Assembly: GCF_001466305.1 (NCBI RefSeq)
Contig: NZ_JWID01000001.1
Coordinates: forward strand, 62,001 to 126,000
Origin: Defluviitalea phaphyphila
Lineage (GTDB): Bacteria > Bacillota > Clostridia > Lachnospirales > Defluviitaleaceae
Direction of reading: 5' to 3'
DNA length: 64,000 nucleotides
The notes beneath the pieces are model-generated. The model made no database searches and had not been told where the DNA came from. It saw nothing but the letters and a program-made list of their open reading frames with translations. Numbering within the stretch: position 1 is the stretch's first letter; each line of letters starts with the position of its first letter. Made by a program: the position numbers and the translations under genes. Positions 29,880 through 35,421 of the stretch are shown one piece after another.

Positions 29880-30845
29880 TTAAAAACCTAATAAATCTAA
29901 TAACTTTCTTTCTACATGTCTATTTTCCCCTTTATAAGGAAAATTGTGCATATAGATTGCTGGATTAAAATTTAATTCGATAATACTATGGTTGCCTCTA
30001 TTTGGAAATTCATCTATATTTTTAATTATCATATCAACACCACAAATTTTAGCTCCTACCGCCTTTGTAGCATCTACTGCTATCTTTTTATATTCCTCTC
30101 CTATTATATCTGTAAAATCTATGCTTTCTCCTCCAGTACTTACATTAGAATTTTCTCTTAAATAAACTATTTCTCCTTCTTTAGGAATATAATTAATATC
30201 TTTCCCTTGAGATTTTAAATAATCTAATTCTATTTTCCCTAACTTAATTTTTTCAAAAGGAGTAGTATGGCCTTCCCCTCTTAAAGGATTTTTATTTTTT
30301 TCTTTTACTAATTCTTCAATGGTCTTATTCCCATCTCCTATTACATTAGCAGGAATTCTATGAATTATTCCTACTACTTCTTCACCCATAACTAAAAATC
30401 TGTATTCTTTTCCAGAAATAAATTCTTCAATTAAAACTGTATCATCATACTTTAAGGCTTGTTTTATAGCATCTATATACCATTCTTTAACATTATTTTC
30501 AGGGAGTATTACAACCCCTGTCCCAAAATTTGTATTTTTAGGTTTTATAACTGTTGCTTTATAAGCAAAATTTTCCCAAAATTTTTCTCCTTCTTCTATA
30601 GATTTTACTATTACTCCTTCTGGCACACAAAATCCCGATTCTTTTAAAATAATTTTAGTTACTAATTTATTTTCCATAATAAGGGGTGCAATATATGTAT
30701 CTAATGAAGTCTTTGTGGCTTGTTTTATATATTCTATTTTATTTCCTTTTTTAAGACGAATAAAATTATCCTGTTCATCTAATATATCTACTTCTATATT
30801 TCTATTTTTGGCTTCTTCTATAAGAATTTTTGTAGAAAGTTCCAT
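29880..30845 (-). CDS. ATP-grasp glutathione synthetase, GshF C-terminal-domain type
   Basis: This 321-residue protein corresponds to the ATP-grasp half of the bifunctional GshF enzyme, which joins gamma-glutamylcysteine and glycine to glutathione. Visible motifs are TVIKPKNTNFGTGVVI (ATP-binding), LIEEFISGKEYRFLVMG, NPLRGEGHTTPFEKI and VDMIIKN...IELNFNPAIYMHNFP (metal ligands). It follows gshA by 15 bases, in the same frame, with its own AGGAGGT site in the gap. Fused GshF proteins are about 750-790 residues, equal to this gene plus the preceding one. Confidence 0.88.
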   Translation of the reverse strand: MELSTKILIEEAKNRNIEVDILDEQDNFIRLKKGNKIEYIKQATKTSLDTYIAPLIMENKLVTKIILKESGFCVPEGVIVKSIEEGEKFWENFAYKATVIKPKNTNFGTGVVILPENNVKEWYIDAIKQALKYDDTVLIEEFISGKEYRFLVMGEEVVGIIHRIPANVIGDGNKTIEELVKEKNKNPLRGEGHTTPFEKIKLGKIELDYLKSQGKDINYIPKEGEIVYLRENSNVSTGGESIDFTDIIGEEYKKIAVDATKAVGAKICGVDMIIKNIDEFPNRGNHSIIELNFNPAIYMHNFPYKGENRHVERKLLDLLGF

Positions 30846-30860
30846 TTTTACCTCCTGAAT

Positions 30861-32264
30861 TTATTTTATTTGTTTATTTAATATAGCTCGTCTAAGACCA
30901 AATTCTAAAAAAGTTTCATTACATTTATGCATTTCATTAATAATTTTAGAAGATAATATTCCTGATGTATTTAATACCTTTTCATATTCTTTATTAATTA
31001 TATATTCATATTTTTTGTATTTTTGGCATTTATCCATAAATATTGCAATATCCCTGATTTTTCTAAAAATATCTTTGCTCCAATTTTTTAAATTAATTTT
31101 ACTACCATCATAATTTTCTAATATTAAATTATCTTTTCTTCCATAAAGAGACACTAAATCATGATTTCTATTAATTTTTTTCATTATTTCTTTACTTATT
31201 TTTTCTGAAGTTTCAAATAAACAAAAGAGCATAAAAACATGCATAAAATATAATTGATCTATAGAAATCCCTGTTTTTTCAAAAGGATTAATATCTAAAA
31301 CTCTAACTTCTATATACTTTATTCCCCTTTTTTGTAAGGCTTGCAAAGGAGTTTCTCCCTTATTAGTAGCTTGTTTAAATCTGATACAAGAATATAACTC
31401 TCCTTCTGTTTGAAGAATATTATCATTTAATTGAATTTGTTCACCATTCTTATAAATACCTAACTTTGTGAATTGGGGATTTTTTGTATTTAACAATTTT
31501 TTTACATCTTTTATATGTTCTGATAAACTATTATAACTTATATAATATTTATCTCTAGATATGTTTCCATATCCTAGTGGACTAACTCTTATTGATGTAG
31601 CGAAACTCAAATCTTGATTATTAAACGAACCAAAACTATTATCAAAATTTGGCGAAGCTCCAAAAAGATATATTAAAAGCCAACGATATTTTAAAAAATT
31701 TCTTGCCATACAAAAATAAATTTCATCTATAAATTGTCTTTTATTTTTACCTTGTCCAAAATGTTCAAATAAATAATCAATAATTTTATTTCCTAAAGAA
31801 AAATTATAATGAATACCTGATATCATCTGCATCTTTTTACCATATCTTATGGCTAAACCTCTTCTATATATTTCTTTTATCTTTCCTTCCTCTGTGTTAT
31901 TAAATTTTGCAATAGGTATATCTTCTTCTTTAGGAAGTCTTGGTGGCATACTCATGGACCATAATATTTCATCTTTAAGAATTTCTTCTGTTTTTATATG
32001 CAAACTTTTTAATTCTTCATAAACTTTTTCTAAAGAGTTATATGGAAATGTAATAAACTCTAATTGACTTTCACCAAAATCCGTAGTAATATTAGGATTT
32101 TCTAATTTATCTCCTAATTCTTTTGGATGATTGGTTAAAGCAATATCTCCTGTATTAGTTATCCTGTGAGTTTCCCTTTCTAATCCCCACATTCCATCTA
32201 ATAATAAGTTAACTTTATTATCACTATCAAATAAATTTAGTATTTTATAAAAATTCCAAGTCAT
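30861..32264 (-). CDS. gshA: Glutamate-cysteine ligase, GshF N-terminal-domain type
   Basis: This 467-residue protein makes gamma-glutamylcysteine, the first step of glutathione synthesis. It has the GshF-type opening GMWGLERETHRIT, TDFGESQLEFITFP, MSMPPRLP, SGIHYNFSLG and the later RKDNLILENYDGS. GAGGG lies five bases before the ATG. The stop codon is separated from the ATP-grasp gene by 15 in-frame bases. This resembles a bifunctional enzyme cut into two chains rather than unrelated gshA and gshB genes. The cell likely makes glutathione. Confidence 0.9.
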   Translation of the reverse strand: MTWNFYKILNLFDSDNKVNLLLDGMWGLERETHRITNTGDIALTNHPKELGDKLENPNITTDFGESQLEFITFPYNSLEKVYEELKSLHIKTEEILKDEILWSMSMPPRLPKEEDIPIAKFNNTEEGKIKEIYRRGLAIRYGKKMQMISGIHYNFSLGNKIIDYLFEHFGQGKNKRQFIDEIYFCMARNFLKYRWLLIYLFGASPNFDNSFGSFNNQDLSFATSIRVSPLGYGNISRDKYYISYNSLSEHIKDVKKLLNTKNPQFTKLGIYKNGEQIQLNDNILQTEGELYSCIRFKQATNKGETPLQALQKRGIKYIEVRVLDINPFEKTGISIDQLYFMHVFMLFCLFETSEKISKEIMKKINRNHDLVSLYGRKDNLILENYDGSKINLKNWSKDIFRKIRDIAIFMDKCQKYKKYEYIINKEYEKVLNTSGILSSKIINEMHKCNETFLEFGLRRAILNKQIK

Positions 32265-32334: not shown

Positions 32335-32354
32335 AGTTCTCATAAAAGAGAACT
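32335..32354 (-). terminator. Terminator of arsRC
   Basis: A 7-bp stem (AGTTCTC and GAGAACT) with a 6-base loop is followed on the minus strand by a run of six U. Confidence 0.75.
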
Positions 32355-32379: not shown

Positions 32380-32796
32380 TTATTTTTCTAAATTAATTTC
32401 TTTGTTTTTAATTCTTCTTGCTAAATCTTTTACTTTTTCTTCTATGATCTTTGCAGTTTTTATGAATTCTTCATCGGATTTCCCTGATGGGTCTTCTAAT
32501 CCCCAATCTTCTTCATATTTTGAAGGTAAATAAGGACAAACCACATTACATCCCATCTTAATTACAATATCTACCTTTGGGATATCTGTTAATAATTTAG
32601 ACTTTTGAGTTTTATTCATATCTACATTATATAATTTTTTAATAATTCTCACTGCATCTTGATTAATCTGATCTTTTAATTGAGTCCCAGCAGAATAAGA
32701 TTCAAATACATCTGAAGCAAAAAGTTTTCCTAAAGCTTCCGCCATTTGAGACCTACAAGAATTATGCACACATATAAAAGCCACCTTCGGTTTCAT
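32380..32796 (-). CDS. arsC: Arsenate reductase ArsC, LMW-phosphatase fold
   Basis: This 138-residue enzyme reduces arsenate to arsenite. The P-loop CVHNSCRSQ has nucleophile C9 and C14, and the relay cysteines C83 and C87 lie in MGCNVVCP, matching the thioredoxin-coupled Gram-positive type. It follows the ArsR gene by 18 bases. No ArsB or Acr3 arsenite pump is nearby, so arsenite export must come from elsewhere, or the enzyme serves as a small phosphatase. Confidence 0.9.
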   Translation of the reverse strand: MKPKVAFICVHNSCRSQMAEALGKLFASDVFESYSAGTQLKDQINQDAVRIIKKLYNVDMNKTQKSKLLTDIPKVDIVIKMGCNVVCPYLPSKYEEDWGLEDPSGKSDEEFIKTAKIIEEKVKDLARRIKNKEINLEK

Positions 32797-32814: not shown

Positions 32815-33183
32815 TTATTTAAAATATAATTTTCCACATTTTAAATCATCACAACTTACTCCACTATCTTTATATCTTTTTAATTTTTTATAGTCTTTAT
32901 TATATGGTTCAAGTTTAAAAGTATTATGACTTAATATTTCATTTATAAAAGGATATTCTTTTATAGTATCCTCATTAAGTTTGTAATATACATACTTTGC
33001 TACTTTATAATGGTTTACTATTTTAGCATTAGTTAGTTTATTTAGATGTCTTGACACATTTGATTGACTCATACTAAGCAAAATTTCTAACTCGCAAACA
33101 CACAAATCTCCATATTTTAAAAGATTTAATATTCTTATTCTATTTTCATCAGAAAGAGCTTTTAAAATCTGTATTAAGTTCAA
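32815..33183 (-). CDS. arsR: ArsR-family metalloregulator
   Basis: This 122-residue winged-helix repressor has the metal motif DLCVCELE (C28 and C30) in the recognition region and HTH residues MSQSNVSRHLNKL. Metal binding would release DNA. A C-terminal extension contains two further cysteines (SCDDLKC), perhaps a third-ligand site. It heads an operon with arsC. AGGAGG lies before the ATG. An inverted repeat ATGAA-N4-TTCAT (33205-33218) in its promoter is a plausible operator. Confidence 0.88.
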   Translation of the reverse strand: MNLIQILKALSDENRIRILNLLKYGDLCVCELEILLSMSQSNVSRHLNKLTNAKIVNHYKVAKYVYYKLNEDTIKEYPFINEILSHNTFKLEPYNKDYKKLKRYKDSGVSCDDLKCGKLYFK

Positions 33184-33417: not shown

Positions 33418-34875
33418 ATGAGAAAATTTTATACTATTATTCTTATTTTATTTTTAACTCTAAGTACTTTTAATGAAAAAATGAATGTTTACGCTACTTC
33501 TACTGAAACAAATAATATATATGTATCTACAAATGATGAATTAGAAGATGCGGTAAATAATGCTGTACCAGGTGATACAATTATTGTGGCAGATGGAAGT
33601 TATGAAGCTTTTAAAATTAAAAATAAAATTGGAACAGAAGATGCTCCTATTACAATAACTGCTGAAAATACATTAGGTGCAACCTTTGATGAAGGACAAT
33701 TACACTTTTATGAATGTGAATATATTGTTTTTAAAGGCTTTGGAATCTATACAGATTCAGAAATTAAAATCGAGGGGTCCAATCATATACGTTTAACAAA
33801 TAATCATATAAGATTAAATGAAGAAGATACGGATTCTTTAAAATGGATTAGAATTTATGGAGAAAACAGTGGTTATAATCAAATAGATCATAATATATTT
33901 GATGAAAAAACAAAACTTGGAAATTTTATTACCATTGATGGAACAAATGAAGATGATCATGGTTCTTGTGTTTCTTCTCAATATGATGTTATTGAATATA
34001 ATTATTTCTATAACATTGGTCCACGGGCAGATAATGAAATGGAAGCTATCCGGGTTGGTTGGAGTGAAATGTCTGAATCAAGTGGCTATACAACTATTCA
34101 ATATAATCTATTTGAAGAATGTGATGGTGACCCTGAAATTATATCTATTAAAACTTGCGATAATATAGTTAGATATAATACCTTTAGATCTTGTCAAGGA
34201 GTAGTAAGTTTAAGACACGGTAATCGCAATGAAGTATATGGGAATTTCTTCTTTGGAGAAGGTAAAGAAGGAACTGGTGGTATTCGTGTTTATGGTTCCG
34301 ACCATAAAATATATAATAATTATATGGAAGGATTAACTGGTAGTGGATACTCTGCACCTATAATCTTAGATGGTGGAGATGTTGACACTAGTGGAGCTTT
34401 AAATAAACATTTTAGAGTATACAGAGCTGAAGTTGTTAATAATACAATAGTAAACTGTGATTATGGTATAGAAATAGGTACAAATTATTCTTATGCTCCT
34501 TCTGATTGTATCATTGCTAATAATCTAATTGTAAATTCAGAAAATGAAGCCATTGCAGAGTATAATGAACCAGTAAATATGACATATGAAGGAAATATAG
34601 TATCAGGTTCTGGAGATATTATCACATTTTCTTCTATAACTGATGATGAAATTAAATTTGTAGAAGAAGTTGAATTAGAATTAAGTAATGATGGACTTTA
34701 TAGATTAAAACAAGATAGTGTATCAATAGATTCCTCTGTTGGAAATTATTCATATGTCACAATAGATATGGATGGACAGTCAAGATCTTTAGCTGATGTA
34801 GGAGCCGATGAATTTTCTTCTGACGATATTGTTATATATCCTTTAACTTCGTCAGATGTAGGTATAGATAATTAA
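33418..34875 (+). CDS. Secreted PL6-family polysaccharide lyase (alginate or chondroitin B lyase type)
   Basis: This 485-residue parallel beta-helix protein has a signal peptide (about 1-26, ending VYA). The family catalytic pair is visible as K245 (ISIKT) and R266 (SLRHG), 21 residues apart, exactly as in chondroitinase B. Short repeats of the NxIxYNxF kind run through the helix. PL6 enzymes cleave alginate or dermatan sulfate by beta-elimination at uronic acids. It is a lone gene on the plus strand with AAGGAGG before the ATG. It may act together with the giant lyase at 47464, although no shared operator is seen. Confidence 0.85.
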   Translation: MRKFYTIILILFLTLSTFNEKMNVYATSTETNNIYVSTNDELEDAVNNAVPGDTIIVADGSYEAFKIKNKIGTEDAPITITAENTLGATFDEGQLHFYECEYIVFKGFGIYTDSEIKIEGSNHIRLTNNHIRLNEEDTDSLKWIRIYGENSGYNQIDHNIFDEKTKLGNFITIDGTNEDDHGSCVSSQYDVIEYNYFYNIGPRADNEMEAIRVGWSEMSESSGYTTIQYNLFEECDGDPEIISIKTCDNIVRYNTFRSCQGVVSLRHGNRNEVYGNFFFGEGKEGTGGIRVYGSDHKIYNNYMEGLTGSGYSAPIILDGGDVDTSGALNKHFRVYRAEVVNNTIVNCDYGIEIGTNYSYAPSDCIIANNLIVNSENEAIAEYNEPVNMTYEGNIVSGSGDIITFSSITDDEIKFVEEVELELSNDGLYRLKQDSVSIDSSVGNYSYVTIDMDGQSRSLADVGADEFSSDDIVIYPLTSSDVGIDN

Positions 34876-34998: not shown

Positions 34999-35421
34999 CT
35001 ATCTATGACAAAATCTATTTCTTTTTTGACAAATAATTTCTTTAGAACCACAGTGAGGACAAATATGTCTATTATGTTCATCATTTAAATCATAAATTTC
35101 TCCACAATTTAAACATTTAAATTTACATGAACCTAAAGTATAGTTTCCTCCACTTATGTGTATTGCATTTCCCTTAGTTAAAGCTATAGTTACTTTTTTT
35201 CTTGCACTATCTATAATATTTTGAAAAGTTTGTCTTGAAACCTGCATTTTCTTCGCACATTCTTCTTGATTAAGTTCTTCAATATCTTTTAATCTCATAG
35301 CTTCGAGTTCTTCAACTTTAAGAATAATTTCTTCTATGTCACATTTTCTTTTTCCTAATGGTATAAAATAAGTATTTTCTGGGAAAAATTCTACTTTTCT
35401 ACATTTTATTGGCCTTGGCAT
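34999..35421 (-). CDS. DUF134-family DNA-binding protein with zinc ribbon
   Basis: This 140-residue protein has an HTH domain (about 40-90, ECAKKMQVSRQTFQNIIDSARKK, in parts) like sigma region 4, and a C-terminal ribbon with CLNCG and CPHCG. DUF134 members regularly sit beside NifX-like and Mrp-like genes in anaerobes. It is the last gene of this operon and overlaps the Fur gene by 16 bases. It is probably an operon regulator; its ligand is unknown. Confidence 0.85.
   Translation of the reverse strand: MPRPIKCRKVEFFPENTYFIPLGKRKCDIEEIILKVEELEAMRLKDIEELNQEECAKKMQVSRQTFQNIIDSARKKVTIALTKGNAIHISGGNYTLGSCKFKCLNCGEIYDLNDEHNRHICPHCGSKEIICQKRNRFCHR

Follow-up and report, generated by a model that had tools for sequence, protein, structure and literature searches.

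The window analysed here is a stretch of 64,000 nucleotides from the genome of the anaerobe Defluviitalea phaphyphila. Its minus strand encodes, in this order, gshA, a stand-alone glutamate-cysteine ligase gene (30861..32264, 467 aa, ATG start, TAA stop), and the gene of a stand-alone GshF-type ATP-grasp ligase, the glutathione synthetase half of GshF (29880..30845, minus strand, 321 aa, ATG start). Both were delimited by open reading frames and profile matches. The 15-nt gap between them (30846..30860, minus strand) was read directly; from stop to start the junction is TAA-ATTC-AGGAGGT-AAAA-ATG, and its AGGAGGT is the second gene's own strong ribosome-binding site. The starts are 1419 nt (473 codons) apart, i.e., in frame, and the two proteins sum to 788 aa, within the range of the fused GshF frames that we examined (759-813 aa). 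The ORF listing and the junction reading agree with the initial annotation of this locus, which described two in-frame genes of 467 and 321 aa at 29880-32264 with an AGGAGGT in the gap, together as long as a full GshF.

The same annotation pointed out the frame register, in which we found no diagnostic value. We compared 15 distinct unfused junctions, setting one locus (L033) aside. Their spacing ranges from gene overlaps to a 291-nt gap, and frames 0, 1, and 2 occur 7, 6, and 2 times, when about 5 in-frame junctions are expected. Besides the window's, the frame-0 junctions are those of L008, L009, L011, L035, L054 (the one with the 291-nt gap), and L074. Because of this distribution, the shared frame cannot be read as a relic of fusion, and the idea that the in-frame gap is such a relic or a stop-readthrough device was dropped. 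The gap region does not fold better than shuffled sequences either (58 of 200 shuffles fold at least as well).

Upstream of gshA, on the same strand, lie a gene of the arsC-like low-molecular-weight phosphatase family (32380..32796; PF01451, 58 bits), which arsenate-reductase models match below their cut-offs, and a gene for an ArsR/SmtB-family regulator (32815..33183; NF033788, 85.8 bits, cut-off 55). A hairpin resembling a terminator separates the arsC-like gene from gshA (32335..32354, minus strand); it comes from a pattern scan only, with 1 found and 0.7 expected in shuffles. Since it precedes gshA, this gene may have its own promoter, and a single arsR-arsC-gshA-ligase operon is uncertain. 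The window also contains a chondroitinase B-like polysaccharide lyase gene (33418-34875, plus strand; PF14592, 171.5 bits) and encodes a DUF134 protein with a cysteine-rich C-terminal stretch (34999-35421).

Six of the loci with gshA and the ligase gene as an unfused pair have an ArsR-type gene upstream of gshA. It is directly 5' of gshA in L054 (a call made by similarity only), L056, L062 (same as L035), L074, and L199 (in genome G053). None was seen upstream in L008, L009, L011, L014/L057, L052, L053, and L061, and L037 and L038 have flanks too short for a judgement. The gene just before the ArsR gene of Ruminiclostridium papyrosolvens encodes an arsenite exporter, ACR3 (436.3 bits, cut-off 282.8). 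L056 and L074 are followed by an ABC transporter pair, and L054 by its ATPase. Metal or arsenic stress might be one use of the pair. An arsenic setting is not special to pairs, since ACR3 matches are also found near fused genes (10 of 70 loci).

The homology of both halves to known glutathione enzymes is far beyond chance. GshA matches the Glu_cys_ligase family (PF04262) at 456.6 bits. It scores 390.3 bits with the model of stand-alone proteins (TIGR01434), a near miss, 3 bits below the curated cut-off of 393.3, and less with the bifunctional model NF002688 (343.7 bits). The closest solved structures are those of stand-alone GshA proteins, which rank before GshAB. The proteobacterial stand-alone GshA (TIGR01434; E. 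coli GshA, PDB 1v4g) is therefore the best known counterpart by both model and structure, even if the window protein has a shorter C-terminus than that of E. coli and a GshF-type ATP-grasp ligase as its neighbour. The C-terminal end of the window GshA lacks the fused-type linker. All 42 near-fixed columns of the alignment are kept, these being columns fixed to at least 97% in the outgroup and fused rows, whatever their role in catalysis.

The ligase matches NF002688 at 461.1 bits over positions 431-751, its whole length aligning with the C-terminal portion of GshF, and its top sequence match in the PDB is the same stretch of 3ln7 (residues 431-751). It keeps 42 of 44 near-fixed columns. Its predicted structural model has a mean pLDDT of 84.8, and the first PDB matches of this model are GshF structures. 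The overall superposition is poor (TM 0.54-0.66, rmsd 11.6-13.6), so the placing of parts within the model is unsure. The score exceeds the NF002688 cut-off of 425 although the protein is stand-alone and has only 321 aa. Automatic annotation would thus label it 'bifunctional', a trap set by the NCBI model. No other locus of the D. phaphyphila genome matches the bifunctional model. Several further stand-alone ligases of the class sample are likewise above the cut-off. The description of the locus as a GshF split in two, given by the initial annotation, therefore fits the ligase half, which is of GshF type, and is imprecise for GshA, whose score is better with the stand-alone model.

Pairs of this kind characterise the window's family. 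Among eight genomes of Defluviitaleaceae, seven carry the genes, always unfused, and the one lacking a match is 78% complete. The junction could be read directly in six of the seven; in G002 both genes are at the ends of different contigs, and the pair labels of its loci (L015 and L018) rest on these positions. The closest records that carry a name are bins from metagenomes, labelled Candidatus Epulonipiscium (L051, L057, L077). In the window's order, GshA matches were found in 47 of 392 sampled genomes, and the genes are fused in other families. In the class sample (391 genomes), an uninterrupted fused gene was counted in 11 and an adjacent unfused pair in 4 (G000, G081, G188, G292). A further 5 have the ligase alone, one (G312) both parts on different contigs, and one (G143) a fused gene interrupted by a stop. 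Unfused pairs are scattered among the other Clostridia; those with names include Clostridium sp. N3C, R. papyrosolvens, and one bin labelled Neomarinimicrobiota. As judged from these genomes, the unfused state is inherited across the window's family and is not an accident of one genome.

We made separate phylogenetic reconstructions of the two halves. Fused rows were thinned by similarity ahead of the first trees, and identical sequences and fragments (GshA below 370 aa, ATP-grasp below 280 aa) were excluded. Both roots are assumed and rest on the chosen outgroups. The first GshA tree had 94 rows, with 8 proteobacterial GshA as outgroup. A more careful tree kept 59 of these, including 7 of the outgroup, after we dropped 10 rows and thinned 25. 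In the careful tree, fused GshF and derived GshA-only genes lacking the ligase form one clade (support 100/100), and the window GshA is outside it. The pairs fall on the proteobacterial side: 14 of them form a clade of their own (95/96), separate from that of the proteobacterial GshA (100/100), and neither L074 nor L017 branches inside the fused clade. The remaining stand-alone GshA proteins do fall inside, where their branch is long (1.45); they may truly have lost the ligase half, or this position may be an artefact.

A 21-residue segment of GshA shows a similar divide. It is present in all 8 proteobacterial proteins and in 15 of 17 pairs, window included, and missing in all 54 fused proteins and in all 15 other stand-alone ones. 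Among the pairs, only L033, which is nested in the fused clade, and L017 are without it. The latter (locus L199, G053) is an unfused pair behind an ArsR-type gene in a family of which other genera have fused genes. Its ligase is cut by the contig end, and the remaining fragment of 179 aa was included in one additional tree, with unsure placement. The segment provides a simple marker to separate pre-fusion pairs from broken fused genes.

The ATP-grasp tree was first built with 107 rows and rooted with the ATP-grasp region of cyanophycin synthetase (TIGR02068), the nearest outgroup of the window ligase (276 bits). These synthetases have further domains (approximately 870-900 aa). The careful version has 73 rows, after removal of 8 long-branch, duplicate, or odd rows and thinning of 26. 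It places cyanophycin synthetase in a separate clade (100/100) and the fused proteins in another (100/97), with unfused lineages outside and the window's family and L074 nearest to it. The outgroup is distant (stem of 1.4 changes per column). Approximately unbiased tests rejected neither a clade uniting the unfused rows with the fused rows of Bacilli type (AU p = 0.42) nor a single clade of all unfused rows (p = 0.58). Hence it is the GshA half that decides, and the ATP-grasp half only agrees. The two parts do not belong to unrelated families, an outcome that the initial annotation had considered.

Overall, these comparisons suggest that the two-gene form preceded the fusion and is not a broken fused gene. 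We consider it likely that the pair is a two-gene module for glutathione biosynthesis, of the kind from which the fused GshF arose. GshA would join glutamate and cysteine into gamma-glutamylcysteine, and the GshF-type ligase would add glycine to make glutathione, the two proteins presumably working together. Both halves are complete, and the product is probably glutathione, given the established chemistry of the two families. A single fusion of such a pair would then have produced GshF. The initial annotation had left the choice between an ancestral unfused state and a fission of GshF to the phylogeny. The ancestral state is favoured by the GshA tree and by the indel, and the ATP-grasp topology concurs, while admitting a rooting of the fission type.

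One alternative is a secondary assembly, in which a stand-alone GshA of proteobacterial type was acquired beside an already free ligase; the pair would then resemble the state before the fusion and not descend directly from it. GshF-type ligases that stand free, with no gshA beside them, are indeed common, and the best scores of the GshA half are with stand-alone proteins. This scenario nevertheless seems unlikely, because the clade of pairs is distinct from the proteobacterial one and because the same partners recur in the same order in many lineages.

The pair might instead make another gamma-glutamyl tripeptide, or stop at gamma-glutamylcysteine. Free relatives of the ligase adjoin other genes (for a condensation/acyltransferase-like protein and DUF6320; L041, L044, L068, L071, L101), so that specificity may vary within the group, and we found no match to glutathione peroxidase in the D. 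phaphyphila genome. Yet the window ligase is closely related to the ligase half of GshF and keeps nearly all of the near-fixed columns, and the genome has one glutaredoxin match, which together make a different product quite improbable.

The reading of the pair as a pre-fusion module must also be weighed against a fission, by which an ancestral fused GshF would have been cut in two within this lineage. In favour of it, the two genes share a frame and add up to the length of GshF, one rooting of this type is compatible with the ATP-grasp tree (the constraint with p = 0.42), and true cuts of fused genes do exist. In L033 (G143), which is inside the fused clade in both trees, the first frame ends early where its fused sister L031 continues to the linker. 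The end of the window GshA shows nothing of a fused-type linker. In the GshA tree, grouping the pairs with the fused row L006 is rejected (AU p = 1.4e-10), as is grouping them with L006 and the rows of Bacilli (p = 2e-75). Finally, a lineage issued from fission would need to have regained the 21-residue segment that every fused protein lacks. A fission is therefore very unlikely. As for the stop codon being a sequencing or assembly error within a fused gene, with fused relatives, as the initial annotation had envisaged, it is practically impossible despite the two frames being in register, since the genes are separate in all seven family genomes that have them and in further families, the junctions differ in sequence, frame, and overlap, and a ribosome-binding site in the gap leads up to a start codon.

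The closest known system is GshF itself (GshAB; NF002688; PDB 3ln6, 3ln7), which combines the same pair of domain families in identical order and has a C-terminal half close to the window ligase over its full length. It differs in being one polypeptide, where the window encodes two proteins, their genes separated by a stop codon, a ribosome-binding site, and a start codon. Moreover, the window GshA keeps the 21-residue segment that all 54 fused proteins lack and is devoid of the fused-type linker. Copley and Dhillon reportedly treated the evolution of these genes in a major paper of 2002. Our search of the open-licence literature returned no title or abstract opening that describes such unfused pairs from Clostridia or gives an account of a state before the fusion. 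Unfused pairs as such are already known from methanogens: according to passages of a 2020 review (PMC7278568), some Methanobacterium encode a stand-alone protein resembling the GshF ATP-grasp domain, syntenic with GshA-like genes. These archaeal pairs are likewise separate neighbouring genes of both GshF domain families, and we liken them to the window pair by this description, the passages in question containing neither a tree nor an indel.

Living bacteria that have the unfused pair would offer a direct test of the effects of the fusion, e.g., on feedback control or on the hand-over of the intermediate. GshF is used in biotechnology to produce glutathione, in part because glutathione does not inhibit it, as stated in a passage of PMC10295655. 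It is possible, if doubtful, that the steps towards GshF can still be seen in living Clostridia: first free ligases, next the pairing of gshA with a ligase, often behind an ArsR-type gene, after that the loss of 21 residues from GshA (which the unfused L017 already lacks), and at last one fusion, with cuts and losses later on.

We also observed other arrangements. Two genomes (G234 and G345) have a fused gene together with a free GshF-type ligase. One fused-type gene with an inner stop codon is in a genome, G143, that also has a free ligase of this type (L033/L149 and L134). In L144 (G342), a GshA-type domain is at one end of a 907-aa open frame. Stand-alone glutamate-cysteine ligase genes borne by plasmids of Pediococcus and Lactiplantibacillus (L158, L160) have very long branches in the GshA tree. 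Three genomes with a free ligase in a recurrent cassette (G117, G168, G213) have no gshA match at the threshold of the class sample. This cassette (L041, L044, L068, L071, L101, L202, L203) includes a DEAD-box helicase, the ligase, a DUF6320 protein, and a 420-aa protein weakly similar to alcohol acetyltransferase/condensation domains.
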